31,064 nucleotides of DNA. Source: a virus. Within the stretch, counting starts at the first letter, position 1; each line of letters opens with the position of its first letter. The stretch covers positions 1 to 31,064 of the IMG/VR virus record IMGVR_UViG_3300036861_000376. The stretch is one strand, 5' to 3'. Below the pieces are notes generated by a model that saw only the letters and a list, made by a program, of their open reading frames with translations, searched no databases and was not told the DNA's origin. This document shows positions 962 through 26,395 of this stretch, piece after piece. The position numbers were made by a program, and so were the translations under genes.

Positions 962-3900
962 TTAGAGCATGCTCCAGACGATCGCCGCGCTTTGCTGGAT
1001 CGCGGCCGGTGTCATGTTGGTCTGCACCGGCATCGAGACGTGGCGCGAGTTGTCAATGTAGGTCGCCCCGCCGCCCGCTGCCGCTGCGCTCATTTGCGCC
1101 GGGCTGGCCACCGCCTGCTGCACGCGGTCGTTCGGGATGATCGTGCCGCTCTGTCGCGAAATGAACAGCTCCGGCCCTTTTTCGCCGACCGTGTAGGGGG
1201 TCAGCGCGTCGACCGGCCCGCCCGCGGCCCGGCCCTCGCGTTCGCCGCGCCGGTACTCTTCCTCGACGATGCGCCGCTCGGTCTGGGTGATTGTCGTGTG
1301 GACCTCGCGTGGGATCGACTCTAGCTCTTTGGTGTAGCTTGCCGCGTCGCCCTTGGCCTCTAAGAAATTGGTGACCGCGGTGGCGGTGTACTCCTTGGCA
1401 TAGTCGTCCATCGCGTGCTGGGTGTCCGCCGCCTGCTGCGCCTGGTCCTGCAAGGTCCCGATCAGCCCCTCGACCGAGCCGCTGCTGCTAGTCGCGAACG
1501 TATCGATCGAGCCGGCCATCCGCAGGAAGGTGGACGCAACGTTGTTCTCTTGCAGCCCGTACTCTGCGGCCAGCGCGTCGGTAATCTCGGCGGCCTTGTC
1601 TTTGGCAATGTTGCCGAGCTGCGCCTGCGCTAAGGTGTAGTCAATCAGCATCTGCCCCAGATGCTGGCGCTGCGCCGCCTGCTGCTGGGCGTAGGACGCA
1701 GCGGCGTTTTGCTCCTCAGTCGCATAGGCCGCCATCTCAGCCGCGATCTTTTCGTCAATCCCCTTCCGCTGCTCCTCGGTCGTGGCCTGTTGTTTTTCCT
1801 TTTCGAGCTCGGCGATCTTGTCTTTGTGTTCCGTCGCGCGGGTCTCAACGCCCGTTAAGAACTCACTTTGTGTCGAGGCGTAGCCCTGCACCGCCTCCTG
1901 CCCCTTGGCGTAGGTATCCTGGATCTGCTTGCCGAGCTTTTCGATATCCTCAGCCGTGAGACTCGCCTGAGCGCCCAGCCCCGCGGTCGCGTCGGTGGTG
2001 ACAGCCAGCTGGGTGGTTGCGGTCATGCTTGATGCAGTTACCTTGATAATCGCCTGTTCTTCATTCCGATACGCATCGGTGGCAACAATCAGCGCGTCCT
2101 TGTGGGCGTTTATCGCGGCCATTTCGGCGTTGTACTGCTCCTCACTTAGCAGCCCGGCCGCGCTCCGCCGCCCCAAGTCCTCGATCTCGCCCTGGATCAT
2201 GTCGCGCATCGCCTGGATATTGTCCGCGAACGGCTTCAGTCTCTCGGCTGCCGCCCCGGTCTGGCTACCGTAATTCTCGATCGCGGCCGCGCTGTCGTTC
2301 CACCACTGGCGCGACTCCAGCAGTTGCGTGGTCGAGCCCTTGACCGCGTTGTTGAACTTGTTGAACGCCAGCACGGTCACGCCGATCGCCGCCCCAATCG
2401 CGACATAGGGGAGCGCGGCCAAGGCGACCGCGCCGGCGTTGGCGACGATCAGGGGCGTCGCGAGCGCCACCCGTTGGGCGACCAGCGCCACGGCCAGCCC
2501 CATATTCTGGATGCCCCCGATCGCCGCCGCCCCGCTGGCCGCGGCATAGGCGACCGTTGCGGCGGTGATGCCGAAGAGCGCCGGGATCGCCAGGTCATTC
2601 ACGGTCCCAGCCAGCTTGGCCAGAAAGGTTTCGCCCTTGAGGGTTGCATCGGCGTACTCGGTAATCGCGTTCACCCCGCTGGCGAGCAGATTGACCAGCT
2701 TGGTGAGCAGCGGCAGCACCGCGCTTCCGACCGTGATCTGAAAGGCTTCCAGGCTGCCCATCAGATTATCGACCGCGAAGTTAAAGCCCCGCTGCTTCTT
2801 GGCGGCCGTCTCAGCGACGTCTGCCGCCTTGGCCATCTTGTCGGCAAAGGCGTCGTACCCGGCTGCCCCGGCATCGGCCAGTGCCACGGCCGCGCCCATC
2901 GCATCATTCCCAAAAATGGCCTGCAACGCTGCCGAGCGCTCGGCGTCGCTTAGGCCAGAGAGCGCACCCTGCAAAAGCTCAGCCGCCTTCTTATTTCCGA
3001 CAAAGGCGCCGTTCGCGTCATAAAACTTACTGGTGCCTTCGCTGGTTAGCAGATTGAGCTTGGCCATCGCGGCTGACGCGTCGGCGGTCGTCGGCTGCAA
3101 GCGGGAAAGGAAGTTCTTGTAGCTCGTGCCCGCCTCGGCCGCGCTCGCGAACGATGGACTGATCAACCCCATCGTGGTCACAAAGTCCGAGTAGACCACG
3201 CCGGTTGATTTCGCCTTGCCGCCGGCCGCCAGCAGCGCCTCGCCCAGCGTGTCGACATTCAAGGTTGAGGCACCCGCAGCCTTGACCAGCAGGTTCTGTG
3301 ACTCGGCCATGAAGCGGGTCTGCTCTTCGACGCTCGCGCCGACCGGCACGAAGGTACCGAGTTGTTTCACGGTCAGCTCGGCCGCATCCGCCAGGTCCAT
3401 CCCGGCCGCAGCGGCAAAGTTGAGACTGTCTCTGAGCGCCCCGCCGGCAATCACGGCCGGCTCGATCCCGCCCTTGGACAAGGCGATCGCGGCCTGCTGC
3501 ACATCGGCCGTTGAGACCGGCAGCTCTTTGCCCAGGCTGATGAACAAGTCCTTGAACGTTTCGAGCGACTGCCCGCCTTCCTCGAGGGAGTCACCAGCCG
3601 CAACCGCGAACTCGTTCATTCCGGCTTCGAAATCACCCGCGGCCTTGACCCCGTCGACGCCGAATTGCAAGAGCGCCTGCCCGGCCGCCATCGCCCCTTC
3701 GACCGCCAGTTCGCCGAGCTTCCGCATCGCGCCGATTGCGGCGTGCTCTATGGCGCCGAGCCCCTCTTCGGCGCAGTCGGTCGCGTGACACAGATCGCCC
3801 ACATCGTCACCCGCCCGCCCGGCCCCGCGCCCCAGGTCGTCGAGCTCGCGATCGGCCCGCCCGGCGTCATCCCCGAGCTCATCCAGGTCGCCCCCGGCCC

Positions 3901-4132
3901 GGCGCGAGTCGTCGCCGAGCTCGTCCAGGTCACCGCCAGCCCGCCCGGCCCCGCGTCCCAGGTTCAGCAGATCGCGCACGAGCGATGCCGCCTCACCTTC
4001 CAGCCCGTTCAGCGCGGCGACCAGCGACTGAGTTGCGGAGGCGAGTGCTGCCTCAGCGCTGACGACCTGGTGGAGGGTGGCGAGATATTCATCGGCGTCT
4101 TTTGCGACGAGTTTGACCCCGGTTTGCTGCAC
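962..4132 (-). CDS. Tail tape measure protein (TP901 type)
   Basis: At 1056 aa this is among the two longest genes here and sits directly after the G/GT chaperone genes, where tape measure proteins belong. It sets tail length and occupies the tail lumen. Residues 58-113 hold four 14-residue coiled-coil-like repeats; roughly 150-490 resemble the TP901 tape measure core (LNLLTSEG, DANGAFVG, LSDAERSAALQAIFG); about 530-605 is strongly hydrophobic, as in tape measures that insert into the host membrane; 750-840 is a charged coiled coil. The C-terminus has the recurrent tape measure motif GGPVD...YTVGEKGPELFI near residues 985-1005. The start is GTG with AAGGA 8 bases upstream, overlapping the end of the frameshifted GT frame by 44 bases. 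Confidence 0.93.
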   Translation of the reverse strand: MQQTGVKLVAKDADEYLATLHQVVSAEAALASATQSLVAALNGLEGEAASLVRDLLNLGRGAGRAGGDLDELGDDSRRAGGDLDELGDDAGRADRELDDLGRGAGRAGDDVGDLCHATDCAEEGLGAIEHAAIGAMRKLGELAVEGAMAAGQALLQFGVDGVKAAGDFEAGMNEFAVAAGDSLEEGGQSLETFKDLFISLGKELPVSTADVQQAAIALSKGGIEPAVIAGGALRDSLNFAAAAGMDLADAAELTVKQLGTFVPVGASVEEQTRFMAESQNLLVKAAGASTLNVDTLGEALLAAGGKAKSTGVVYSDFVTTMGLISPSFASAAEAGTSYKNFLSRLQPTTADASAAMAKLNLLTSEGTSKFYDANGAFVGNKKAAELLQGALSGLSDAERSAALQAIFGNDAMGAAVALADAGAAGYDAFADKMAKAADVAETAAKKQRGFNFAVDNLMGSLEAFQITVGSAVLPLLTKLVNLLASGVNAITEYADATLKGETFLAKLAGTVNDLAIPALFGITAATVAYAAASGAAAIGGIQNMGLAVALVAQRVALATPLIVANAGAVALAALPYVAIGAAIGVTVLAFNKFNNAVKGSTTQLLESRQWWNDSAAAIENYGSQTGAAAERLKPFADNIQAMRDMIQGEIEDLGRRSAAGLLSEEQYNAEMAAINAHKDALIVATDAYRNEEQAIIKVTASSMTATTQLAVTTDATAGLGAQASLTAEDIEKLGKQIQDTYAKGQEAVQGYASTQSEFLTGVETRATEHKDKIAELEKEKQQATTEEQRKGIDEKIAAEMAAYATEEQNAAASYAQQQAAQRQHLGQMLIDYTLAQAQLGNIAKDKAAEITDALAAEYGLQENNVASTFLRMAGSIDTFATSSSGSVEGLIGTLQDQAQQAADTQHAMDDYAKEYTATAVTNFLEAKGDAASYTKELESIPREVHTTITQTERRIVEEEYRRGEREGRAAGGPVDALTPYTVGEKGPELFISRQSGTIIPNDRVQQAVASPAQMSAAAAGGGATYIDNSRHVSMPVQTNMTPAAIQQSAAIVWSML
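3794..3961 (-). repeat. Four 14-codon repeats inside the tape measure gene
   Basis: Residues 58-71, 72-85, 86-99 and 100-113 follow one pattern, L-G-(R/D)-(G/D)-x-x-R-A-(G/D)-(G/R)-(D/E)-(L/V)-(D/G)-(E/D). Each unit is 42 bases. Such units can expand or contract by recombination. Confidence 0.8.
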
Positions 4133-4328
4133 CGCTCGTGTCCTTTTTTGGTCGATTGGCCCAGGCGTCCACTGCCTGGTAGCGCATTTCTATCCGGTAG
4201 GTGGCGATTAGCAGCGCCTGCTCATCGCTCTCTTTGGCGTCAAAGGCGTCCCAGTCCAACCCCCACCACTTGGCCGCGCGCACCATTTCATAGTCGCCAT
4301 GGAACGCAAAGGCCCCGCCCGGCGGGTC
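4089..4328 (-). CDS. Frameshift extension (T part) of the tail assembly chaperone
   Basis: This 79-codon stretch is open in the +1 frame relative to the chaperone gene that ends at 4327 and has no start signal of its own. Joined to the upstream frame it gives a 268-residue fusion. It is compact and globular-looking (WWGLDWDAF, DEQALLIATYRIEMRYQAVDAWANRP) with a basic tail (TRRKRRR), as in the T portions of lambda-like gpGT that bind the tape measure. It overlaps the tape measure start by 44 bases, the classical G/GT/tape-measure arrangement. The frame could be read alone from an ATG at 4415, but that product begins with arginine-rich out-of-frame sequence and lacks a ribosome site. Confidence 0.7.
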   Translation of the reverse strand, partial: DPPGGAFAFHGDYEMVRAAKWWGLDWDAFDAKESDEQALLIATYRIEMRYQAVDAWANRPKKDTSGAANRGQTRRKRRR

Positions 4329-4332
4329 AAGG
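4326..4332 (-). promoter_or_regulatory. Candidate +1 programmed frameshift site CCU-UGA-C
   Basis: The G frame ends ...GAG CCU UGA followed by C. UGAC is a weak terminator, and a proline tRNA on CCU can re-pair with CUU one base ahead, the geometry used by the prfB autoregulatory shift (CUU UGA C). The frame entered is exactly the open T frame. Shifting elsewhere in the overlap (4329-4415), including a -2 shift, cannot be excluded. Confidence 0.55.
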
Positions 4333-4896
4333 CTCGGACTGAACAGGTTCTTCCCGTGATACGTCGGCTGGAAACGTGGCAATATGCGCCTGGATCGCCG
4401 CCTCCTGCGGCGCATTGCGGTCGTAGACAGCCCGGATCAGTTCCGTCCAATCTTTTTCGCTGCCGATACACACGAAGGCGACATACACATAACGATCGTC
4501 ATAGGCGGTCAGATCAGTCCCAGTCTCGGCCGAAACGCTGCGCACCTGCGTGACCGCATCCTGGTCGATCTCTTTTTCGGTCACCACCACCCCGCGCTTG
4601 AGCACAATTTGTCGGATACGCGCATAGACTTCCGCGTTCACCTTATTCGTCCAATCGAGCAGCAGCTGCTGGTAGACCGGGTGGGCCGGGTTCGGGATCT
4701 TGATTTTGCCGTCGCCGTAGTCGACCTCCGACATGGGCGGCCTGGGCTCCTCAAACCCCGGCGACGCGATCACCTGCCGGCGCGTCTCGGCCCGCAGCAG
4801 CGTACTGACCTTGCGGATCTGGACCGTGCGGCCGGTGTCCGGGAAGGTAAACGGTTCGAGCTTTTCGGGTGGTGGGGTGCGGCCGTTCTGTGGCAT
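4327..4896 (-). CDS. Tail assembly chaperone (G-like)
   Basis: A 189-residue protein between the putative tail tube gene and the tape measure, the position of lambda gpG and relatives, which coat the tape measure during tail assembly. It starts at the ATG at 4896, because GAGGAG lies 7 bases upstream; a longer frame from GTG at 4911 would have its start overlapping that ribosome site. N-terminal residues PQNGRTPPPEKLEPFTFPDTGRT look like the beta-hairpin start common to such chaperones; the middle is helical and charged. The ribosome site sits in the loop of a perfect hairpin (4898-4914), described separately. Translation is probably followed by a low-frequency shift into the T frame. Confidence 0.75.
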   Translation of the reverse strand: MPQNGRTPPPEKLEPFTFPDTGRTVQIRKVSTLLRAETRRQVIASPGFEEPRPPMSEVDYGDGKIKIPNPAHPVYQQLLLDWTNKVNAEVYARIRQIVLKRGVVVTEKEIDQDAVTQVRSVSAETGTDLTAYDDRYVYVAFVCIGSEKDWTELIRAVYDRNAPQEAAIQAHIATFPADVSREEPVQSEP

Positions 4897-4897
4897 G

Positions 4898-4987
4898 GTT
4901 GTGCTCCTCACAACACTCCAGAAGGTACAGCGCGCGGCGTGCAGTGGAGTCCCTGCTCTTCGCCCCGTCGAGCTAGCCGCGCGCTGT
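4898..4987 (-). ncRNA. Structured intergenic RNA, copy 1 (after the putative tail tube gene)
   Basis: Read on the minus strand: a perfect 12-bp stem (4976-4987 with 4927-4938); inside it a hairpin GCAG/CUGC (4953-4956 with 4941-4944) with loop GGACUCCA (4952-4945); downstream UGGAGU (4920-4915) is fully complementary to ACUCCA of that loop, so a pseudoknot is possible; then a perfect 6-bp hairpin (4909-4914 with 4898-4903) whose 5-base loop is the Shine-Dalgarno AGGAG of the chaperone gene. A second copy with the same plan lies at 14056-14137. There is no U-tract, so it does not look like a simple terminator. Confidence 0.75.
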
Positions 4988-8849: not shown

Positions 8850-9154
8850 TTCTTGTGCTCCCATTTCTTGATGACGACAGTTCCAGCACTCAGCGCCAGC
8901 CAGGTGAGTGGCCAGGCGTACACGTCGGCGTAGCCCAGCACCGTGATAGCGATCGCGGCCGGCAGCGCCACCCAGAACGACACACAGATCGGGCAGTTGA
9001 GCCCGCGCCCCACCCAGGTCTGCTGATCGGGATCGAACGCCCCGCGTAGCTTAGTAAAGATCGCCCCCGGCCCTTCCTCCTCAGCGACCATGCGGCTGAG
9101 GCGGTAGACCGCGAGTGCGGCCACGAGAAAAGCGAACGGTTCAATCATGTGCAT
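8846..9154 (-). CDS. DUF1360 family membrane protein
   Basis: 102 aa with three likely membrane spans (about 4-20, 55-75, 78-95). The block AVYRLSRMVAEEEGPGAIF...LRGAF and, after it, GLNCPICVSFW with its CxxC is characteristic of the DUF1360 family, which is common next to phage and sporulation genes and has no established function. A second ATG two codons in could also be used. The start overlaps the aminotransferase gene, and the stop overlaps the LamG gene (ATGA), so it is translationally coupled to both. A holin-like or membrane-docking role is possible but only a guess. Confidence 0.7.
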   Translation of the reverse strand: MHMIEPFAFLVAALAVYRLSRMVAEEEGPGAIFTKLRGAFDPDQQTWVGRGLNCPICVSFWVALPAAIAITVLGYADVYAWPLTWLALSAGTVVIKKWEHKK

Positions 9155-10211
9155 GGACCCACTCCCGAATGGCTTTCGCGATATGCTCCCGGTCGCTATT
9201 ACTCACCCACCAGCCGACCGGGATGGCGACGTTGCGCGACGCGAAATGATCGACCCCGGGCAGCGGCCCGCTCGGAAACTGAAACGCTGCGTGCGTGTCG
9301 TTCCGTGTGTGTACCGGGCTAGCGGCAATTCCGTGGTCAGCCAGCCAGGAAATAAAGCCTTGCCGATCGTCCACCAGCAGGGTGTAGAGCCACCAGGCCG
9401 AGTGGTCATTCCAGATCGGCCGCGTGATGCCCGGCAGATCGGCCAGCGCGTGGTGGTAGTACAGCGCGTTGCCCCAGTGCGTGCCGAGTATCCACGGCAG
9501 CTCGGGGATGTTCGCCAGCCCGATCGCCGCCGCGATGTCGTTCATGTGGTACTTGTAGCCGACCTCCTGAATGTTCTGCTCGCACCGAAAGTCGGCTTTG
9601 CTGCGCCGATCGAGCCCGTACCACCGCAGCAGCCGCGCGCGCTCCAGCTCGTCGAGTGGGCACCATAGCGCGCCGCCGTCGCCCGTGGTCAGGTGCTTGA
9701 TTGCTTGAAAAGAAAAACAGGCATAATCCCCACCGATGCCGGCCGTGAGTGAGTGCGCCGCGTCCTGAATGACTGGCAGCCCGAACACTTTCAGGCTGTC
9801 GTAGTCACACAGCGCGCCGCCCCAATCGACGGCCATAATCGCCTTGACGTGCGGCGTAATCGCCAGCCGTTCGGCCACGCTGGCCGGGTCGATCAGCCCG
9901 GTCAAGGGATCGACATCCGCCCAGACCGGGCGCGCGCCGCGCCGCACAATCACGCTGTTGGTCGCGGTACAGGTGACTGGCGTGGTGATGACCGCGTCGC
10001 CAGGCCCCACGCCGATCAGGTGCAGCGCCAGGTCGAGCGCGCTGGTACAGCTGTTGGTCGAGATAGGCGGCTGGGGTGTGCTCAGCACATCTTGCAGCGC
10101 GGCCTCGAACGCCTCGACCTGCTCGCCCTGCCCGATGTAGCCCGATGCCAGCACTGCCGCCACGCGCTCAGCGGCTTCGTCACTCATCGCAACTTTGAAC
10201 AGCGGTATCAT
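9141..10211 (-). CDS. DegT/DnrJ/EryC1/StrS-type sugar aminotransferase
   Basis: 356 aa from the ATG at 10211, which overlaps the previous TGA; an upstream in-frame extension reads as arginine-rich antisense-like sequence and is rejected. PLP-dependent fold I: TNSCTSALDLALHLIGVGPGD (53-72) binds cofactor phosphate, QDAAHSLTAG (149-158) carries the pyridine-nitrogen Asp, and SFQAIKHLTTGDGG (167-180) carries the Schiff-base lysine K172. These enzymes aminate 3- or 4-keto nucleotide sugars. With the GNAT gene two places upstream it suggests synthesis of an N-acylated amino sugar (compare PseC/PseH or WecE/WecD). No dehydratase is seen in the window, so the keto-sugar would come from the host. Confidence 0.9.
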   Translation of the reverse strand: MIPLFKVAMSDEAAERVAAVLASGYIGQGEQVEAFEAALQDVLSTPQPPISTNSCTSALDLALHLIGVGPGDAVITTPVTCTATNSVIVRRGARPVWADVDPLTGLIDPASVAERLAITPHVKAIMAVDWGGALCDYDSLKVFGLPVIQDAAHSLTAGIGGDYACFSFQAIKHLTTGDGGALWCPLDELERARLLRWYGLDRRSKADFRCEQNIQEVGYKYHMNDIAAAIGLANIPELPWILGTHWGNALYYHHALADLPGITRPIWNDHSAWWLYTLLVDDRQGFISWLADHGIAASPVHTRNDTHAAFQFPSGPLPGVDHFASRNVAIPVGWWVSNSDREHIAKAIREWVHAHD

Positions 10212-10891
10212 TCGAGCCAGCCCTTTGCGAATAACTCGGTTGCGTTGGCGTTGTAGACCGCGTGCTGGGTGTAGGCAAGCGCGTTGTGGGCGTGCAGCCG
10301 GCGCCAGCCGGCTACCCCGCCACAGTGCGGAATGGCGTGCGTGTTGTGGACCTTGTCGACCGCCCACAAGAACACATCGTCATGGCACGCGATCGTCGTC
10401 TCGTTCCACCGGATGCCCTCAGCCACGTAGCAGGCCGTGCGGTGGGCAAAGTTGCCGGTGGTCAGCATCCGCATGTCGAGCGGGCAGAGCCGGTCCAGCG
10501 TCGACGCCTGGCCGTCTTCGAAGGTGTACCAGTCGCCGCGCGTCCAGTGCTCAGCCGGGTGCAGATCAAACCACGCGCGTACGGTGTCCAGCCAGCCGGG
10601 ATGGAACAGGTCATCATCGCAGAGATAGGTCACCACGTCGGCAGTGACCAGGCCCAGCGCCTGGTTGATCAGCCGGCCCAGGCGCGGTGTGACGAGTCGC
10701 TCCGCAGTGGTCATCTTTGGCGCATCCACAAAGCAGTAGGCTGGAAAGTCGGTCATCAGCTTGTGCGGGTCAAAGTCGCTGCCATCATCCACCAGCACCA
10801 CCTGGTCAGGCCCGGCCGCGAGACTGGCCAGCGCCTCGCGCAGCATGCGCGGCCGGTTGTAGGACAGGAGAATTGTGGCAACAGTCGTCAT
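10208..10891 (-). CDS. Family 2-like glycosyltransferase (GT-A)
   Basis: 227 aa. The N-terminus TVATILLSYNRPRMLREALASL and then VVLVDDGSD are the nucleotide-binding start of GT2 enzymes; TYLCDDDLFHPGWL supplies the metal-binding DxD. A later HDDVFLW segment matches the acceptor-side acidic motif. Transfers a sugar from a nucleotide donor to an unknown acceptor. Overlaps both neighbours by 4 bases (ATGA). Shorter than typical GT2 enzymes (about 250-300 aa) and with no membrane span, so cytosolic. Confidence 0.85.
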   Translation of the reverse strand: MTTVATILLSYNRPRMLREALASLAAGPDQVVLVDDGSDFDPHKLMTDFPAYCFVDAPKMTTAERLVTPRLGRLINQALGLVTADVVTYLCDDDLFHPGWLDTVRAWFDLHPAEHWTRGDWYTFEDGQASTLDRLCPLDMRMLTTGNFAHRTACYVAEGIRWNETTIACHDDVFLWAVDKVHNTHAIPHCGGVAGWRRLHAHNALAYTQHAVYNANATELFAKGWLE

Positions 10892-11313
10892 TTCTTGTAC
10901 ACCAGCACCGCCGTGCGGTCCTGCGCGTAGGCGATTTCATAGCCCGCCCGGAGCGCGGCGCGGATCGACGGCGTGTTATCCGCCAGAATCTCAGCCCAGA
11001 CATCGTCCGAGATAGCCAGCGCGAGCCAGCGGTAGATCCCAGTTCCGTAGCCCTGCCCTCGGTAGCGCGGCGCGACTGCGAGACTGCACCACCAGCGCCC
11101 GCCCTCCAGGCGCAAGAGCCCGTAGCCCACGTCGGTGTTGCTCTCACTGAACAGAAAGATCGGGTAATCGTGCGGCGCGCGAGCTGCCCACCACGCCCGC
11201 TGCTCAGCCGGCGTGATTTCGTGCGTGTCGCGCGTCATCCACTGCCGGCCGCTGTTGCGGATCACCCTTAGGGTTTCCACATCTTTCTCAGTGTGAACAG
11301 GTCGTGCGTTCAT
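10888..11313 (-). CDS. GNAT N-acetyltransferase
   Basis: 141 aa from the ATG at 11313, overlapping the upstream stop; a longer frame to 11361 lies inside the glycosyltransferase upstream. The acetyl-CoA loop is RYRGQGYG (83-90) after the beta-strand WWCSLAVAP; the C-terminal strand EIAYAQDRTAVLVYK completes the fold. The N-terminal part RVIRNSGRQWMTRDT...ITPAEQRAWW resembles sugar-acylating GNATs such as PseH, which acetylate the amine made by a DegT enzyme. In this operon that partner is the aminotransferase at 9141-10211. Assignment to a sugar rather than to a protein substrate is inferred from context. Confidence 0.8.
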   Translation of the reverse strand: MNARPVHTEKDVETLRVIRNSGRQWMTRDTHEITPAEQRAWWAARAPHDYPIFLFSESNTDVGYGLLRLEGGRWWCSLAVAPRYRGQGYGTGIYRWLALAISDDVWAEILADNTPSIRAALRAGYEIAYAQDRTAVLVYKK

Positions 11314-11888
11314 CGCGCCACCGCTATCACATCGTCGTACCAGGCTGGGCCAATTTGCCACTTCGCCAGGGTGCTTTCGATAAAGTCAAAGTCGCCACCA
11401 TACCGATCGCCCCACTTGCCCAGCTTCTCAGGAATATTCGGCGGCACAATGCAGTGCCCACCGATCGCACTCTCCACCGCCTCGTACCGCTCCGGCAGCG
11501 TGCGGCCGAGCCGCTGACAGACAAACTTGAACATCAGCGGCCGCCGCTCGTTCACTTGTTCCGCCCGATGGCGGATGATGTGCAGCGCCTCGGGTGTAAA
11601 CACATCGTCGTCGTCGATAAACACCAGATAGTCGCCAAGGGCCTGCGTCATCCCATAGTTGATCTGGCAATGCCCCCAGCAGTGATGGCCAGCGTCGAAC
11701 GGCAGAAAGCGGTACGGTGGTCCTTTGCCCTCGATCTCAGCTGCCAGCCAGGTCAATGGGTGGTCGTGCGTGTCGCCGATAATCAGCACCTCGTCACCGT
11801 CCGCGAGCTGCGGATCGATCGAGTCGAACAGGCGATGCAGCCCGTCGCCGTCCGGCGTCGGCACGATTATCGAGAGACGGCAGGCCAT
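11310..11888 (-). CDS. Family 2-like glycosyltransferase (GT-A)
   Basis: 192 aa. MACRLSIIVPTPDGDGLHRLFDSI opens a GT2 fold; INYGMTQALGDYLVFIDDDDVFTPEAL carries the DxD motif; the C-terminal third (HCIVPPNIPEKLGKW, DFDFIESTL) matches the acceptor-binding half. It overlaps the upstream glycosyltransferase by 22 bases and the acetyltransferase by 4, so the set is one translation-coupled unit. Acceptor and donor unknown. Confidence 0.85.
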   Translation of the reverse strand: MACRLSIIVPTPDGDGLHRLFDSIDPQLADGDEVLIIGDTHDHPLTWLAAEIEGKGPPYRFLPFDAGHHCWGHCQINYGMTQALGDYLVFIDDDDVFTPEALHIIRHRAEQVNERRPLMFKFVCQRLGRTLPERYEAVESAIGGHCIVPPNIPEKLGKWGDRYGGDFDFIESTLAKWQIGPAWYDDVIAVAR

Positions 11889-12514
11889 CCGAGTGCCCTT
11901 CGCTGCTCAAACAATTTCCGATCGCGCTCCGCTTTGGCGCGGCCTTCCGCATACACAGCATCGTCGGCTGCCCCAAAGTAGGGATGGTCGTGCGCCAGGA
12001 TAGACCAGGGCGCCTTGGCGTACACGTCGTCGGCGGTCGCCCGCTCGACGAGCTCATTGTCGCCGTAGCTATGGTCGTACCAGACCGGATAACCACCATA
12101 GCGCTCGAGCAGCGACCGGCTGATAAGAAAATGACAACTATGCTCGACCCCGTGCCCGTCGCCGTTGAAACCCACCAGGCCGTCGCCGTCGCCAAATGTC
12201 TGCTGATAGGCTTCTACTGCGCGTTGCAGCCACGGCCCAACCGGGATAAGATCGTTGGCGAGACTGGCGATCAGTAGCGCATCAGTGCGTTTGATAGCCC
12301 ACTGCATTGCCTGCCAATAGGTCAAGCGGTCGCTATCGTGGCAAAAGGTTTCAACCCCCATCTGGCGTAACTGCCCAAACCACTCAGCTTCACCGCGCGC
12401 CCCAACCGCGTACAGTCGCCACTCCACGTTGCCCGCCGTTGCGAGTAGTCGCTTGGCGTTGCGGATGGTCTGCTCGGCACGGCCCCGGCACGGCATGATG
12501 GCGGCGACGTTCAT
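11867..12514 (-). CDS. Glycosyltransferase-like protein (GT-A fold, atypical DxD)
   Basis: 215 aa. MNVAAIMPCRGRAEQTIRNAKRLL is a GT2-type start. At the metal site it reads LLIASLANDLIPVG, so the usual DxD is replaced by AND, and catalysis may be altered. Later HSCHFLISRSLLERYGGY and YGDNELVERA match the acceptor half of GT-A proteins. Overlaps both neighbours. It may be a divergent enzyme or a non-catalytic partner of the adjacent transferases. Confidence 0.75.
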   Translation of the reverse strand: MNVAAIMPCRGRAEQTIRNAKRLLATAGNVEWRLYAVGARGEAEWFGQLRQMGVETFCHDSDRLTYWQAMQWAIKRTDALLIASLANDLIPVGPWLQRAVEAYQQTFGDGDGLVGFNGDGHGVEHSCHFLISRSLLERYGGYPVWYDHSYGDNELVERATADDVYAKAPWSILAHDHPYFGAADDAVYAEGRAKAERDRKLFEQRRALGWPAVSR

Positions 12515-13548
12515 GGCTTGGCCAGCTCCACTTTCTTGGGCCTAAGCGCTTTTGTCGGCTCGGCGTCCGGTCTGAGCGCTTCGGGCGGCGGTACCGCCGG
12601 GTCTTGCTTCGGCACGATTCGGAGCGGCACGCGCTCGGCCAGCCAGGCCGCTTCGGCCTGGGTCACATCGGCGTAGCGGTGTTTGGCATTGTTGCCCAGC
12701 CGGATCAGCCGGTGCCCAAAGTCGAACGGGATCGAGCCGCGCTCCTCACCCAGGTACTGCACCCGCACCATGCCGCCCTCGACGTTGACCGGGTTCGGCT
12801 CAGCGAGATTGCCCACCGCCTGCCCGGCCAGCTTGACCAGCGGCGCGTCATCACCGCAACAGCTTGCCATCGGTATTACCCCTTGTTCGTTTCGGTAGTC
12901 TTTCCAGACCGGCTCCATCGTTTCCCTGTTGGGATAGAAGCGGGTCATCCGGTCGCCTTCCCAGACCCGGTAGACAAAGATCGGCTGATTGGTCCGGTAG
13001 CCGCAGATGCCTGCCTGCGCGAGCCTGAGATGAAACCGCCAATCCTCCCAGGCGTCGCCGCGCTCGTCCATCCCGCCGACCGCCCGGACGTGCTTGGCCG
13101 GGATCAGCGTCGTGATGACGTGGATGTTGTAGCGCGCCATGTTGGCCTGGACATAATCCGGCGCCCCGCGCAGCTCATACGCGCCGGTCTGCTCAAACGT
13201 GTAGCAGTCGCCGTAGACATAGCCGTGGCCGCCTTCGGCGTAGGCACGCAGCAGATGCTCGATGCCGCGCGGCAGGTAGTAGTCGTCGGCGTCCAGGAAG
13301 CTGAGAAACTGCCCACGCGCCTTTTCTATCCCCCGGTTGCGCGTTCTTGCCGGGCCGCGCCGCTCGCCGTCCGACTCCAGCACCGTGCAGCCGGGCAACT
13401 GTCCGATCTCTGTCTCCCCATCTGCAACCAGGATGGTTTCGCATAATGGCGCCACGCTCTGGTAGGCCACGCTGGCCGCTGCGACGCGGCAGTGCTCAGC
13501 GTGACGCGGGCCGACCGGGATGATGACACTGACGAGCGGCTTATCCAC
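12511..13548 (-). CDS. Family 2 glycosyltransferase fused to a small phage-type C-terminal domain
   Basis: 345 aa, GTG start with GAGGGAAG upstream, overlapping the previous stop by 8 bases. Residues 5-205 are a full GT2 domain: VSVIIPVGPRHAEHC, ETILVADGE, LSFLDADDYYLPRG (DxD at 86-88), and DERGDAWEDWRFHLRL (ED base region). Residues 225-345 are not glycosyltransferase: a CC pair at 230-231, then GMVRVQYLGEERGSIPF...YADVTQAEAAWLAE (259-305), which resembles small proteins encoded next to capsid genes in siphophages, and a Pro/Lys-rich tail. The fusion suggests that the enzyme docks on, or is packaged with, the virion. This is the first gene of the glycan island. Confidence 0.82.
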   Translation of the reverse strand: MDKPLVSVIIPVGPRHAEHCRVAAASVAYQSVAPLCETILVADGETEIGQLPGCTVLESDGERRGPARTRNRGIEKARGQFLSFLDADDYYLPRGIEHLLRAYAEGGHGYVYGDCYTFEQTGAYELRGAPDYVQANMARYNIHVITTLIPAKHVRAVGGMDERGDAWEDWRFHLRLAQAGICGYRTNQPIFVYRVWEGDRMTRFYPNRETMEPVWKDYRNEQGVIPMASCCGDDAPLVKLAGQAVGNLAEPNPVNVEGGMVRVQYLGEERGSIPFDFGHRLIRLGNNAKHRYADVTQAEAAWLAERVPLRIVPKQDPAVPPPEALRPDAEPTKALRPKKVELAKP

Positions 13549-14055: not shown

Positions 14056-14137
14056 CTGTGTCTCCTCACAGCTCCATGTTGAGCGCGCGGCTGGCGGTGG
14101 AGTCCCCGCCTTTTCGGGAGCGACCCTAGCCGCGCGC
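14056..14137 (-). ncRNA. Structured intergenic RNA, copy 2 (after the capsid gene)
   Basis: Same plan as 4898-4987. Minus strand: 10-bp stem (14128-14137 with 14083-14092); inner hairpin GGCGG/CCGCC (14106-14110 with 14093-14097), paired differently from copy 1 but with the identical loop GGACUCCA (14105-14098); UGGAG (14076-14072) complementary to CUCCA of the loop; then hairpin CUGUG/CACAG (14067-14071 with 14056-14060) with the Shine-Dalgarno in loop AGGAGA. Base changes that keep pairing between the copies support a conserved RNA fold. Confidence 0.75.
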
Positions 14138-14146
14138 ATGCTCCTC

Positions 14147-15565
14147 TTAGCCGTTCGAGCCCGACTGCGGGTAGAAGTACGGCAGCGGGGTGTTGACGCC
14201 GCCACCATTGACGAAGTAGGTCTCATCGGTCATGGCGTCGCGCTCGTGGACAGAGATCGTGTAGCGCATGTTGGTGAATTTCGCCGCCAGGAACGGGGTC
14301 ATCAGAATCAGGCGCGGCCGCTCGACGATCTCGACCTGCACGCAGGTGTGGGTGGGCGACTGCCGGACCTGCAAGAAGCGCCCGTTCTGCAAAACGCTGA
14401 AGTAGCCCTGGGGCGCCATCGCGCTTGCGGCTGCGATCGCCTGCTCATTGAACGGGAAGTACTCCCAGAACAGCGTCGGCTCGCCGTTGGCGGTCAAGGG
14501 CACGAAGTGGATGTCGCTCTCATAGGTGCCCACGACGCCGCCGGCCGCCACTTCCTCGACCTTGGTGTCGTCGATGATGACCTCGTAGCGCTTGCCCTCG
14601 ATGAGCAGGTAGCGGCCCTGCCGCATGTCGTCGCGCATCTTGGTCATCTCTTCGGCGCTGGATGTGCGGATGATGGTGTTGGTCGCGCAGCCGACCGTGG
14701 CGTAGACACACGGCCAGATGTTGGTCAGCGTCCAGAACGCGCCGTAGCGCATCGTGAACGCCCACTTGACATCGAACCCGAGCTGCTCGGCGAGCCGCTC
14801 TAGGTTCGTGACGACATTGGCAAGGATGCCATAGATCGTGCTGCCGCTGCTGGTGGCGTTCGTGCCGTTCAGGTCGATCACGATCGAGTCGGCCGCGGGG
14901 CAGAGCACCCCGGTGATCGCGTCGCGCTTGCCGGTCGAGACCAGCAGATCGAGCCCGCGGTACTGCTGCCAGCCCGCGCTGCCGGCGGTCGTCTGCGGGT
15001 TGCCGGTGTAGATGTAGCGCGCGTAGTCGCGGAAGTAGCCGGTGTACAGCTCGGCCAGCTTCTTCTCGTACTCGGTCTGAAGCGCTTTTTGCCAGTTGAT
15101 TGGGCCGGGCGGCGTGTTGCCCTGCATGTCCGGGCTGCCGAACAGCACGTTATCGGTGAACTCGCCGCGGTTGACGATCTGCCCGGCATACTTGACGTTC
15201 AGCACCTGGCTCTCGCGGCCCTGCTGGCCAAACGGGTGCTGCTGCCGGCAGAGCTTGAATTGCCCCACCAGCGGCCACTCGGCGCAGGCGCCCGTGGGCT
15301 CGGTGCCGGTCGAGGCGGTCAGGCCCGTCAGGATGCCGAAGATCTCGTTGGTGTCGATCGAGGGCCTGACCGGCAGCCGCCCCGCCAGCCCGCGCGGCAT
15401 GATCATCGCGTTGACGATCTGCCTCGAGAGGCCCGGCGTCGCCAAGAGCCCGCCAGGGCCGTGCAACTGCGCGCCGGCGGAGGTGCCGGCGTCTTTGAAC
15501 GTGGACGCCATCGCATTGAAAAAGCGAATGGCATCAGGCGTGAGCGATGGCGTCAATCCTTCCAT
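14147..15565 (-). CDS. Major capsid protein (HK97 fold likely)
   Basis: 472 aa, immediately downstream of the protease/scaffold gene, as in HK97-type phages. The sequence is soluble, mixed alpha/beta, with a variable N-terminus and the C-terminal pattern of capsid proteins (HTCVQVEIVERPRLILMTPFLAAKFTNMRYTI). Segments GEFTDNVLFGSPD and FDVKWAFTMRYGAFWTLTNIWP look like E-loop and spine regions, though I cannot map them exactly. Residues 24-48 are nearly identical to residues 36-60 of the upstream protease/scaffold. The gene has a strong AAGGAGA site in a leader shared with the putative tail tube gene and is followed by the structured RNA copy 2. High expression is expected. Confidence 0.85.
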   Translation of the reverse strand: MEGLTPSLTPDAIRFFNAMASTFKDAGTSAGAQLHGPGGLLATPGLSRQIVNAMIMPRGLAGRLPVRPSIDTNEIFGILTGLTASTGTEPTGACAEWPLVGQFKLCRQQHPFGQQGRESQVLNVKYAGQIVNRGEFTDNVLFGSPDMQGNTPPGPINWQKALQTEYEKKLAELYTGYFRDYARYIYTGNPQTTAGSAGWQQYRGLDLLVSTGKRDAITGVLCPAADSIVIDLNGTNATSSGSTIYGILANVVTNLERLAEQLGFDVKWAFTMRYGAFWTLTNIWPCVYATVGCATNTIIRTSSAEEMTKMRDDMRQGRYLLIEGKRYEVIIDDTKVEEVAAGGVVGTYESDIHFVPLTANGEPTLFWEYFPFNEQAIAAASAMAPQGYFSVLQNGRFLQVRQSPTHTCVQVEIVERPRLILMTPFLAAKFTNMRYTISVHERDAMTDETYFVNGGGVNTPLPYFYPQSGSNG

Positions 15566-19907: not shown

Positions 19908-20552
19908 TTAACTCTCAAATAATGGGCCATTATTAAGGGCAAGCGCATCAACTAAATTTATTTGTATATCTAAGAGTTCTCGTTGCTCACTGACTGTTTT
20001 AGGCCTAGAAATATCTCTATATTTCCACAACTCAAATATAACAGCAGGGTTTAATTCAAACCACTCATCACCAGTAGCATCGTCTTTTATTCGCACTCGT
20101 TCAAATAATCGATGTATCCATGCCTCAATCCATGACAAACTACCAGACTTGATTACATGGATTGGCACGAGAGGATATCCAGCCCCACATCTTAACTGTC
20201 TAAATCGAGTAGGTATATCGTCTGAAATACCTATTTTGTACCTATTAGGAAATAATGATATCGGCAAGGTGCTATCCCACTCATTACAATACAAAATGTA
20301 TATACCTTTATTAGGAAAGGCCATCGATTTGACCGTATCACCCCATCGATAGGCCCAAATTGCACGCCTTATCTGTTCTTTATCAACATCACTAATATCT
20401 CGCACTTCTCCCAGATCAGATCCGGCCGACTCAAGAAGCCAAATTGTCCTGATTGAAATCGTTGCCTCGGCAAGGAACTTCCATTGAAGTCGCTTCAAAT
20501 CGGCAAGCGCCTGCATATACTCAGTATTGGGATCGGAATAAAGAAAGCTCAT
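19908..20552 (-). CDS. Free-standing GIY-YIG nuclease (T5orf172/MUG113-like), copy 1
   Basis: 214 aa. Motifs in order: GIY at 83-85 (NKGIYILYC), YKIG at 105-108, arginines at 116/118 (TRFRQLR), likely metal-binding Glu143 (WIEAWIHRLF) and DEWFEL 162-167. The N-terminal 80 residues are helical and unknown; a DNA-recognition domain is not obvious. The gene is clearly more AT-rich than its neighbours and uses A/T-ending codons, so it is a recent arrival. It sits exactly between two structural genes, overlapping the upstream stop by 4 bases, as phage homing endonucleases often do. Confidence 0.78.
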   Translation of the reverse strand: MSFLYSDPNTEYMQALADLKRLQWKFLAEATISIRTIWLLESAGSDLGEVRDISDVDKEQIRRAIWAYRWGDTVKSMAFPNKGIYILYCNEWDSTLPISLFPNRYKIGISDDIPTRFRQLRCGAGYPLVPIHVIKSGSLSWIEAWIHRLFERVRIKDDATGDEWFELNPAVIFELWKYRDISRPKTVSEQRELLDIQINLVDALALNNGPLFES

Positions 20553-21112
20553 AACTGCAACACCCCTTCCCGAATATGCACCGGCGACCAGTCGCGCTCA
20601 CGCTGGATGCAGGTTTGACACGAGTCATCTTTGCTGCGCCGCCACCATGCGTCATAGTCGCCCTTATCCTCATCCACCGTCTGCACCTCCCACGCGCATC
20701 CGCAATTCCCAAAACACTGGGTTCCTTGCGCGGGCATCGCCGGCAGCGGCAACATCTTGACCTTGCCGCGCCAGTAGGGCACCTTGATGCTATTGGCGTA
20801 GCTGGCGGCTCGTGCGTTCCAGCCGTTCTCCCACCTCTTGCCCGATTGGATCGATAGCGCGAACTGCCCCAGGAACCTCAGCTGCACCGCGACGTCTTTG
20901 GCAATCGCCGCCGTCGCCGCCGCGCTCAGCGTATCGACCCCGGCGCCGGCCATAAACGCTGCCGTGTGGTAGCGCGCGAGCTGGCGCGAAAGCTCCTGTT
21001 GCCACGCGGCGACCTGTGCCGGATCCTGTTCCAAGGCGCCGGTCGCCTGCTGAATGAGCAAGGTCAGGCGGCGAATGAGATAGGGTAGCGGGCCGGATGG
21101 CTGCTCGCTCAT
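20549..21112 (-). CDS. Minor head protein (phage head morphogenesis family)
   Basis: 187 aa. Helical N-terminal part (YHTAAFMAGAGVDTLSAAATAAIAKDV, QLRFLGQFALSIQSG), then NARAASYANSIKVPYWRGKVKMLPLPAMPAQGTQ and a cysteine-rich C-terminus with C133, C137, C139, C165 and C168 (GNCGCAWEV, SCQTC). This resembles the C-terminal half of SPP1 gp7/Mu F-like head morphogenesis proteins, where the cysteine segment follows the portal-binding helices. It would lie next to the portal, but a GIY-YIG gene now separates them. Shorter than typical F-like proteins (about 300 aa). Confidence 0.7.
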   Translation of the reverse strand: MSEQPSGPLPYLIRRLTLLIQQATGALEQDPAQVAAWQQELSRQLARYHTAAFMAGAGVDTLSAAATAAIAKDVAVQLRFLGQFALSIQSGKRWENGWNARAASYANSIKVPYWRGKVKMLPLPAMPAQGTQCFGNCGCAWEVQTVDEDKGDYDAWWRRSKDDSCQTCIQRERDWSPVHIREGVLQL

Positions 21113-21771
21113 AGCAAATCAAGTAGTGAGTGTTGTGTAGCCTCAGAACGCGGCGGCTCCAAAACTTTAATCGAGAATAACCAATGCAAATCTTCAATTG
21201 CTAAATCAAAATACTCGTGGTTGGGATACTTGCGGCAATGACGATACCTTTCATGTAAAAACCGTTCACACCAATCCAGATCGGATGTCTCAATGACATG
21301 CAATAAGGTCAGTGACGGTGCAGCACAAGTATGCTTCGCTATTCGGCGCGGAACAATTTCAGCTTTACCTATCTTATATCCCTCATAAGGATGATGATAA
21401 ATATAAATCCCAGTTACAGGAAAAATGAAGCCCTCTTTTAACCTTTCTATGTCTAGCTGATCCTTAAAAAATAACGCACCCGTACACTTAGCCCACTCGT
21501 TTACTTGCTCAAACAGTATGCCAGTGCTCTTTTCAAAATCCTCCCTTTGCTGATCGGTTATATCCATTGGACTTATGCAGAGCATATTTAATACGTGGTC
21601 AAGGAACTGACTAAATTGCCTTTTATGTAAACGAACATAATAACCACACTGCGGGCAGTAATCGGCGGTCCCAGGCGCTGTTTCTCCACAACTATTACAC
21701 TTATATACTTTTTCCTCAACAAATTCTTGAAAGGTTAGCCATAATACATGATTACGAGCATAAGGGTTCAT
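21109..21771 (-). CDS. Free-standing GIY-YIG nuclease with N-terminal zinc ribbon, copy 2
   Basis: 220 aa from ATG 21771; an in-frame ATG at 21783, inside the portal gene, is possible, and GGAAG lies 12 bases before 21771. Zinc ribbon: C25/C28 and C39/C42 (CNSCGE...YCPQCGYY). Helical linker to about 115. GIY at 121-123, YKIG at 132-135, RR at 142-143, Glu169 (WCERFLHERY), EYFDL 186-190. AT-rich like copy 1 and unlike the surrounding head genes. The shared YKIG layout places it in the same T5orf172-type group, but the N-terminal domains differ, so the two probably arrived separately. Confidence 0.78.
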   Translation of the reverse strand: MNPYARNHVLWLTFQEFVEEKVYKCNSCGETAPGTADYCPQCGYYVRLHKRQFSQFLDHVLNMLCISPMDITDQQREDFEKSTGILFEQVNEWAKCTGALFFKDQLDIERLKEGFIFPVTGIYIYHHPYEGYKIGKAEIVPRRIAKHTCAAPSLTLLHVIETSDLDWCERFLHERYRHCRKYPNHEYFDLAIEDLHWLFSIKVLEPPRSEATQHSLLDLL

Positions 21772-21772
21772 A

Positions 21773-23419
21773 TTATCGATCATGCTTCCTGGCCTCCCTG
21801 CCCAGTTTGCGCGCACTATCCAGTTCCTGCTTGAGCAGCGCCAGCGCATCGTCATCTTCCTTGTCGTCTTTGTAGGTTATCCCAATATAGATCGGATTTC
21901 CGTCTTTGTCATGGCCAATGAGCCTATGCTGTGTGATGGTAATTCGATCCTTGGTCGCCGTCGCCATCCCTGGCTGCGGCTTGGGCGGCACGGTCGGTGC
22001 GCTCTGGAGCAGCGCCAGCGCGGCCGGGTTGTACGCGGTCTCGCCTTGCGGCTTCTCATCGTCCGAGATCTGCCCGCCGGCCGTCGCGTCATTCTGGAGC
22101 AGCTCCTGGGGCAGATCCTCGCTATCCACCGCGAGCTGGCGCGCGATCGCCGGGTTGATTTCACCTGAGTCAATCTGCACCTTACGGGTATCGGCGCGGA
22201 GCTTCTTGACCTCAGCGTGGGCCTTCTGGTCTCTGAGGTCGTTCTCATCCTCAAAGAGCAGCTCGGTCGTCGCCGGTAGCACGCGGTCACTGGCCGTCTG
22301 CTCCCACCACTTGAGAAAGGCGGGCAGGCTGCCGGCGCCCTTGGCCGCCTCGTCCAGGATAACCGTCTGCGTGCCCGTTCCCAGGCCCTGCCCGCTCAGC
22401 GGCTGAATGTCTTGCACCGGCACGCCCAGCGCGTTGGCGTAGATCAGATAGCCATTGTCGCGCTCATCCTTGGGGACAAACTCGGCGAGCAGTTCTTTCA
22501 GCCTGACCTCGACCAGGCTGATCGGCGTGTCCGAGGGGATGGCGCCCAGGATTGTGCCCAGGTAGTAGAGCAGACCCTTGGCCTGGGCCTCGGCCTGCCC
22601 CGCGCGGATGATGCCCTGCAAGGTCGGGTCGCTGATGCCCTGGATGAAGGCCAGCTTATTGGCCCCGCCGCCGGTCAAGTTCTCGAACACCAGCTGCTCC
22701 ATCGCGGCGAGCTTGGCGATCGTCGGGTAGGCCCGATCGGCCGCGCACTCGCCGACGCCAAACAGCTCAGCGCGTGGGCTGGGCTGGTCTGCATACATCA
22801 GCACCTGGTCCCAGCGCAAAATCTGCTGCACGCCGCTCACCGGCATGTAGCGCAGCGGGTAGGCCAGGTTGCCCGTACGCACGCAGCGGAGTGAGTCCAG
22901 GTGGTAGAGCCCGCTGATTTTGGCGCCCGGCCGCGAGCGAGTGACCGCGGCCTCCGCAAAGCCACCGGTGTCTGCCCCGGCGATCGTCTCTTTCACGCGC
23001 ACCTTGATGGTCTCGTCGTCGTCGCGCCGGATGCGCACAAAGATGCCGTTGTTGGTGGTGGTGAGGTCGCGCATCACTTTGAGCGCGAAGGGCACCCAGC
23101 CCTCGCCGCCGTTCGCGCGCTTGAAGAGCTCCTGCGAGGCTGAGACGCGGCGCTTGCTGTCCTCACTGTCTTTGATGATGTAGCCGTGCGCGGCGAACTT
23201 GGTGGCGACTTTGGCGACCGCCGCGCCCCACATTGCCTCACGCTTGGTCGTGCCAGAGAGCACCCAGTCGCGCCGTGGCGAGTAGTAGGGCGGCAAGTCG
23301 GTGTAGGTTGGCGGCGACATGAGGTAGGGCAGCGCGACCTGAAAGAGCACGCCCGACGAGGGATAGTCCAGCGTGTCGCCCTTGATGGCGGATGGGAGCT
23401 GTCCGTTGCCGTTGGTCAT
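21773..23419 (-). CDS. Portal protein
   Basis: 548 aa after the large terminase gene and one small ORF, the standard portal position. Forms the dodecameric DNA entry ring of the capsid. Supporting patterns: N-terminal YYSPRRDWVLSGTTKREAMWGAAVAKVATKFAAHGY, a beta-rich clip region (NGIFVRIRRDDDETIKVRV; LRYMPVSGVQQILRWDQVLMYAD), the stem and hinge (AMEQLVFENLTGGGANKLAFI), and a C-terminal helical region with ENDLRDQKAHAEVKKLRADTRK and a Pro-rich tail. The C-terminus is followed within 1 base by the inserted GIY-YIG gene. Confidence 0.87.
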   Translation of the reverse strand: MTNGNGQLPSAIKGDTLDYPSSGVLFQVALPYLMSPPTYTDLPPYYSPRRDWVLSGTTKREAMWGAAVAKVATKFAAHGYIIKDSEDSKRRVSASQELFKRANGGEGWVPFALKVMRDLTTTNNGIFVRIRRDDDETIKVRVKETIAGADTGGFAEAAVTRSRPGAKISGLYHLDSLRCVRTGNLAYPLRYMPVSGVQQILRWDQVLMYADQPSPRAELFGVGECAADRAYPTIAKLAAMEQLVFENLTGGGANKLAFIQGISDPTLQGIIRAGQAEAQAKGLLYYLGTILGAIPSDTPISLVEVRLKELLAEFVPKDERDNGYLIYANALGVPVQDIQPLSGQGLGTGTQTVILDEAAKGAGSLPAFLKWWEQTASDRVLPATTELLFEDENDLRDQKAHAEVKKLRADTRKVQIDSGEINPAIARQLAVDSEDLPQELLQNDATAGGQISDDEKPQGETAYNPAALALLQSAPTVPPKPQPGMATATKDRITITQHRLIGHDKDGNPIYIGITYKDDKEDDDALALLKQELDSARKLGREARKHDR

Positions 23420-26162: not shown

Positions 26163-26395
26163 TCGCCAGCCTGCCTTTCCAGCACGTCCAGGCGCCGCTC
26201 CGCCTCATTCAGGCGCTCGGTGTAGGTGCGGATGACGCCCAGCGCGCCCGACGCGCTCTGTACCGTCGCCTCGCTCCTAATCTCTTCCAGCCACGCGCGC
26301 ACGGCCGCAAGGAACTCATGGATCTCCGCTGTCCGATCGGGCAGAAACACGGCAACGGCGTTGACGAGGCGGTCAGTGGGACTAATCTCGCTCAC
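26159..26395 (-). CDS. Small helical protein of the lysis cluster
   Basis: 78 aa, mostly amphipathic helix (AEIHEFLAAVRAWLEEIRSEATV, RLNEAERRLDVLERQA). Overlaps both neighbours by 4 bases. May pair with the membrane-anchored coiled-coil protein encoded next; no family recognised. Confidence 0.6.
   Translation of the reverse strand: MSEISPTDRLVNAVAVFLPDRTAEIHEFLAAVRAWLEEIRSEATVQSASGALGVIRTYTERLNEAERRLDVLERQAGE

Follow-up and report, generated by a model that had tools for sequence, protein, structure and literature searches.

The int-alpA RNA in a phage structural operon: a loop with two complementary partners and a candidate translational switch

What is the structured RNA that precedes two genes in the structural operon of a phage, and what may it do for them? 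The question arises from a 31,064-nucleotide stretch of viral DNA (positions 1 to 31,064 of IMG/VR record IMGVR_UViG_3300036861_000376), which we analyzed at its full length and refer to as the window. An earlier sequence-only reading, made without database searches, described nested stems, a loop, a complementary UGGAG(U) and a second hairpin with AGGAG, and reported the same layout again at 14056-14137. All of these parts were found, on the minus strand, and the coordinates of every part bear out the repeated layout (Table 1).

Two int-alpA copies in the window

A cmscan search of the window against Rfam 15 returned exactly two matches, both to the int-alpA family (RF02996), with scores (Table 1) exceeding the gathering score of 35.8 bits. 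As in the family, the core of each copy folds into a three-way junction of helices P1, P2 and P3 with the junction elements CUAG and CGAAAAG, the latter being CGAAGAG in copy 1. Seven relatives identified in this work (L065, L066, L039, L148, L155, L308 and L316) likewise score above the RF02996 gathering score. Since its core is a known Rfam family, the window RNA does not represent a new class, and the sequence-only reading was wrong in stating that no named RNA family has this layout. The Rfam consensus contains a loop, CCuU, and a tail, aAgGG, that are mutually complementary; thus, the pseudoknot sequence is already present in the family as such.

The window copies differ from the Rfam entry in that Rfam types the family as “Gene; sRNA”, with a model that ends before hairpin P4, segment B and the start codon (see below), and in that they lie in a structural operon and not beside an integrase or alpA gene. 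Proximity to these two genes is the eponymous context of the family and not a structural criterion. In the wider set of RNAs described below, the gene ahead of the RNA encodes an integrase in 18 of 110 cases, and a search for AlpA among the downstream-gene families of this set yielded no match. A literature search for the function of int-alpA, which did not cover the original family description, retrieved a mention in a presence table and no function. The apparent novelty lies in the extended architecture, in which one loop has two alternative partners that co-vary, together with the resulting model of a switch acting in cis.

Table 1. Coordinates of both int-alpA copies and of adjacent genes in the window
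Feature	Coordinates	Strand	Remarks
Copy 1, whole element	4987-4898	minus	AUG 4896 next
Copy 1, int-alpA core	4928..4986	minus	RF02996 36.6 bits; model R1 50.2 bits
Copy 1, P1	4976-4986 with 4928-4938	minus	
Copy 1, P2 hairpin	4962-4973	minus	
Copy 1, junction GAAGA	4957-4961	minus	
Copy 1, P3 hairpin	4941-4956	minus	loop L3 = GGACUCCA
Copy 1, L3 pairing segment ACUCCA	4945..4950	minus	complements A; 4 nt (CUCC) complement GGAG of SD
Copy 1, segment A, UGGAGU	4915..4920	minus	L3 pseudoknot partner, 6 bp with ACUCCA; abuts P4
Copy 1, P4, GUUGUG-AGGAG-CACAAC	4898..4914	minus	perfect 6-bp stem; SD in loop, 4904-4908
Gene after copy 1, 189 aa	4330..4896	minus	ORF, AUG 4896; between 514-aa gene and tape measure
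Copy 2, whole element	14137-14056	minus	AUG 14052 next
Copy 2, int-alpA core	14083..14137	minus	RF02996 39.0 bits; model R1 55.7 bits
Copy 2, P1	14129-14137 with 14083-14091	minus	
Copy 2, P2	14116-14126	minus	
Copy 2, junction GAAAA	14111-14115	minus	
Copy 2, P3	14093-14110	minus	loop L3 = GGACUCCA, as in copy 1
Copy 2, L3 pairing segment CUCCA	14098..14102	minus	
Copy 2, segment A, UGGAG	14072..14076	minus	L3 pseudoknot partner
Copy 2, P4, CUGUG-AGGAGA-CACAG	14056..14071	minus	5-bp stem; SD in loop, 14062-14066
Gene after copy 2, 71 aa	13840..14052	minus	ORF; 55-60% identity to post-RNA gene in L066 and L068
Gene before copy 2, putative major capsid protein	14147..15565	minus	named from position, no profile hit

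The 514-aa gene before copy 1 had been labeled a tail tube gene; its product gave no tail-tube match and weak BNR repeats only, and the label is thus unproven. The 189-aa product of the gene after copy 1 matched nothing in Pfam or PHROG and had no direct relatives in viral contigs; from its position only, a putative tail assembly chaperone is suggested. Two overlapping minus-strand ORFs (4327-4911 and 4089-4415), which separate copy 1 from the tape measure gene, look like a candidate frameshift-derived pair of tail assembly chaperones, and the tape measure protein carries tandem acidic repeats (DDLGRGAGRAGGDLDELGDD...) near its N-terminus (3750-4060, minus strand). Between the two copies, the structural operon houses a sugar-gene island (9141-13548, minus strand) with a DegT/DnrJ/EryC1 aminotransferase and at least three family-2 glycosyltransferases. 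Elsewhere on the minus strand, two related T5orf172/MUG113-domain (GIY-YIG-like) proteins are inserted among head and portal-region genes (19908-20552 and 21109-21855), and a response-regulator receiver domain is fused to an HD-GYP-type HD domain (26392-27414).

P1 is practically identical in both copies (GCGCGCGGC/GCCGCGCGC), and only P2, P3 and the Shine-Dalgarno (SD) hairpin P4 differ between them, with pairing kept. The covariation that the sequence-only reading saw between the copies therefore holds for these three helices and does not extend to P1, so that the two copies on their own make thin covariation evidence. Folding energies of single sequences were modest (z of -2.4 and -2.6 for the two copies, and -0.8 for the copy 1 core folded alone). 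The minimum-energy folds of single copies provide weak evidence, and the comparative evidence is decisive.

Covariation of the core and of its loop with two partners

Relatives were collected by DNA pattern scans, two of viral contigs and one of GTDB genomes, which yielded about 130 distinct RNAs, and by covariance model searches and inspection of annotated phage records, which added 44. With P1 and P3 required, parsing of the pattern-scan results gave 151 distinct RNAs, 138 of them tied to a start codon. About 45 of 60 loci from the first pattern scan were chance matches and were removed by requiring the stems; an Anaerolineae locus, L136, was rejected, its genome containing no covariance model match.

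In an alignment of 106 RNAs, pairs of P1, P2 and P3 were formed in 90.5% of cells, compared with 66.6% after shuffling. The covariation score was 0.536 against 0.128±0.009 in shuffled alignments and at most 0.106 with the partners slid. The sequence-only reading had named a lack of covariation in homologous phages as a refutation, and this outcome did not arise. As judged by these compensatory changes, the element is a conserved structured RNA with a P1-P2-P3 three-way junction that spans phages. Conservation of CUAG, CGAAAAG and part of P3 is partly imposed, these having been fixed by the search patterns; members found by covariance model vary at the junction (GAAGA, GAACA and GAACG). P3 varies freely in the window clade and in the set found by covariance model (GCAG/CUGC, GAUAG/CUAUC, GCCGG/CCGGC and UCCCG/CGGGA). 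Of the P2 loop, a small number of types recur, namely NNNC-GACG-GNNN, GGG-UAGCU-CCC, NNN-CGGCCA-NNN and GGCCCGCGAACC; this suggests binding of some partner by P2 or its participation in a tertiary contact.

Directly 3′ of P1 lies segment A, complementary to the P3 loop L3, with which it would form a pseudoknot. L3 is often complementary also to segment B, a second copy of A located in or beside the SD sequence in the P4 loop. For example, loop ACCUUCA is accompanied by A UGAAGG and B UUGAAGGAG, loop AUCGUCA by UGACGA and GACGAGG, loop AUCCGCA by UGCGGA and GCGGAGG, and loop AUCAUUAA by UUAAUGAU and UAAUGAGG. The significance of these matches was assessed by permutation, the loops being swapped among RNAs. 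For 86 distinct loops, the longest complement in A averaged 5.26 nt with the RNA's own loop and 3.38±0.10 nt with permuted ones, and that in the SD region B averaged 4.87 and 3.75±0.09 nt, respectively (0 of 10000 permutations in either case). Among 27 loops unlike an anti-SD, the B match reached at least 5 nt in 59% compared with 13%. In 69 of 171 RNAs, A and B contained the same L3-complementary 5-mer, compared with 10.5 (at most 20) for permuted loops, and the shared cores were varied (GAAGG, GACGA, GCGGA, GAUGA, AGCGA, AAUGA, UACGA, AGGAU and others). The result was replicated with the 44 RNAs obtained outside the pattern selection (4.70 vs. 3.41 nt for A and 4.68 vs. 3.82 nt for B, both 0 of 20000).

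The sequence-only reading had proposed that the loop may pair either with the decoy A or with the ribosome site in the second hairpin; L3 is indeed complementary to both, and covariation across phages lends support to both. L3, A and B change together across phages, and this covariation supports two pairings that would be mutually exclusive. In the window itself, the L3:B match comprises just 4 nt (CUCC:GGAG), as any SD would give, and the claim for copies 1 and 2 therefore rests on the family. Dual pairing is not universal, since in a subgroup of five RNAs (L147, L162, L219, L229 and L249) the match to A is 7-8 nt and that to B only about 3-4 nt. In 20 of 171 RNAs neither partner matches at 5 nt by the matching rules applied here, parsing errors explaining some of these cases.

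The P4 stem is at least 5 bp long in 79% of RNAs, compared with 27% after shuffling, and mostly ends 0-4 nt upstream of the start codon; 86 of 115 P4 loops contain or adjoin an SD-like 4-mer. The distance from the end of P1 to the start codon has a median of 31 nt (10-90% range, 29-37), and of seven annotated records, five have a CDS annotation that starts within 4 nt of the match end. On the other side, a stop codon is found no more than 15 nt before P1 in 73 of 124 cases. Neither the sequence before P1 nor that following the cargo gene yielded a conserved motif when searched, apart from some U-runs.

Distribution and exchange of neighboring genes

Covariance model R1, searched without a fixed pattern, retrieved copies in 31 of 274 genomes from the class of Comamonas, in 7 of 190 from the class of Devosia and in 4 of 198 from the phylum of an Actinobacteria MAG (L109), each tally including the known positive used as the center, as well as in 1 of 201 genomes from the phylum of L136 (Chloroflexota). 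About 11% of the sampled gammaproteobacterial species genomes contain int-alpA. Most phage records carry one copy and a few carry two. An enterobacterial form is found in late operons of E. coli prophages (e.g., L262 and L263), between lysis genes or the Rha regulator and a DUF551 gene, and 50 of 5,426 complete E. coli genomes contain a close match to it.

Genes behind the family RNAs are nearly all different and include those for DUF1376 replication proteins, endonuclease VII, HNH and GIY-YIG proteins, methyltransferases, tail proteins and ORFans, while the genes ahead include, besides integrases, HTH regulators and capsid genes. Among 197 pairs of near-identical RNAs, neither flank was shared in 81%, the upstream flank only in 13% and the downstream flank only in 3%. 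Since flanks are mostly unshared even between near-identical RNAs, the device appears to be gene-agnostic, with genes being exchanged behind it.

Searches with the window capsid protein retrieved relatives with 64-85% identity (81-85% and 64-65%). Eleven of the contigs carrying them extend past the capsid gene, and in six (L064, L065, L066, L068, L070 and L073) the stop codon of the capsid gene is followed directly by the RNA. The remaining five (L063, L067, L069, L071 and L074) instead show a plain hairpin of 10-14 bp at this position and lack a second SD hairpin. Searches of INPHARED phages with the window capsid protein and with the L003 leader gave no match.

A candidate switch, its alternatives and known systems

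Because the loop, as comparison with about 170 relatives suggests, can pair with a decoy or with the copy of that decoy at the SD site, the RNA is probably an on/off valve for the next gene. On balance, and with modest confidence, we favor the view that the int-alpA element is a cis-acting, gene-agnostic translational switch located in the leader of the following gene and present about once per phage. In one state, L3 would pair with A in a pseudoknot, leaving the SD free of L3, and the 30S subunit would open P4 and start translation; in the other state, L3 would pair with B and lock the SD. It is this difference in SD access that would make the leader a translational switch in cis. Mean predicted energies of L3:A, L3:B and 16S anti-SD:B, calculated for isolated duplexes with no pseudoknot model, are -7.8, -8.1 and -8.0 kcal/mol, respectively. 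Since these values are similar, an outside input of modest size could tip L3 between A and B. Candidate inputs would be a protein, from the phage or its host, and a small molecule, either of them acting at the conserved junction (UA / GAAAA / CU); alternatively, the input might come from ribosomes that complete translation of the upstream gene 5-15 nt ahead of P1. In the window, the copies would control the 71-aa gene behind the putative capsid gene and the probable tail assembly gene behind the 514-aa gene. The genes so regulated are unrelated, and the device would thus work on any gene placed behind it. Overall, the interpretation given in the sequence-only reading is partly supported.

A broader reading, which we put forward only tentatively, is that phages and prophages of gamma- and alphaproteobacteria, and more rarely those of Actinomycetota and Chloroflexota, widely use int-alpA as a gene-agnostic translational switch, in which one loop would choose between the decoy and the ribosome-binding site upon a signal of the state of infection. 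Since unrelated cargo genes are exchanged behind it, the RNA might then mark the entrance of a cargo slot.

Alternatively, the dual complementarity could serve to keep translation constitutively low. In this case, the pseudoknot, together with P4 and L3:B pairing, would hold the next gene low and uncoupled from the upstream one, with no switching. The fixed place of the RNA between the stop and start codons, the very diverse and often accessory genes behind it, and the ability of P4 alone to hold the SD fit such an insulating leader, which would, however, need neither segment A nor A and B copies that co-vary with L3, and whose needs are exceeded by the conserved junction; we regard it as unlikely. 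We give about the same low credence to a strict riboswitch, in which a small molecule bound at the conserved junction would favor one pairing. A junction with an alternative-pairing platform over the SD is the layout of several translational riboswitches, and int-alpA combines such a platform with a three-way junction and near-invariant unpaired residues. Yet the downstream genes share no metabolic function, and the invariance of CUAG and CGAAAAG is the partly imposed one described above, with some positions varying in members found by covariance model.

Protection of the upstream mRNA, raised in the sequence-only reading, receives indirect support from the plain hairpin found at the same place in five of the 11 capsid-relative contigs. 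The structure would block 3′-5′ exonucleases or be cut to separate the messages, and its closeness to the upstream stop codon and the more frequent sharing of upstream than of downstream genes between near-identical RNAs agree with such a role. This explanation leaves the covariation of A, B and P4 with L3 over the SD unaccounted for and has to accommodate upstream genes as diverse as integrases and HTH proteins; we consider it improbable. Still harder to sustain is a small RNA acting in trans, whose exposed L3 would pair with SD regions of other mRNAs. The Rfam type and the often anti-SD-like L3 speak for it, but the geometry relative to the start codon is strictly that of a cis element, complementarity of loops to their own B exceeds that of the loops of other RNAs, and the usual single copy per phage, together with the unrelated partner genes of near-identical RNAs, argues against a gene-specific trans regulon. 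Least credible of all is an intrinsic terminator or antiterminator, or a DNA recombination site, for despite the strong GC-rich stem and the unshared flanks, which could mark borders of exchanged DNA, most copies have no U-run after P1 (nor was one found when copies 1 and 2 were inspected for a GC-rich stem followed by a U-run), and a DNA site would not be expected to show compensatory changes in all helices.

With the switch model, an Rfam family typed as sRNA and of unknown function gains a testable job and a larger structure that includes the pseudoknot, the decoy and the SD hairpin. Should switching occur, the element would be a general control valve for accessory and structural genes of phages and a portable regulatory part.

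Sequestration of the SD by a pseudoknot is known from the translational riboswitches preQ1-II, SAM-II and glutamine/Downstream-peptide. Like these, int-alpA combines an aptamer-like junction with a loop that pairs to the SD region; unlike in these, there are two alternative partners for the loop, nearly identical to each other, of which the first is a decoy and the second lies at the SD; moreover, the regulated genes are without a common function, and int-alpA has no known ligand. Phages also employ simpler devices: homing endonuclease genes of T4 and other phage accessory genes are preceded by hairpins that sequester the SD. Like them, the int-alpA element places a hairpin over the ribosome site of accessory genes, which are often nuclease genes, but instead of standing alone the hairpin belongs to a junction RNA that is conserved across phages and has alternative pairings.
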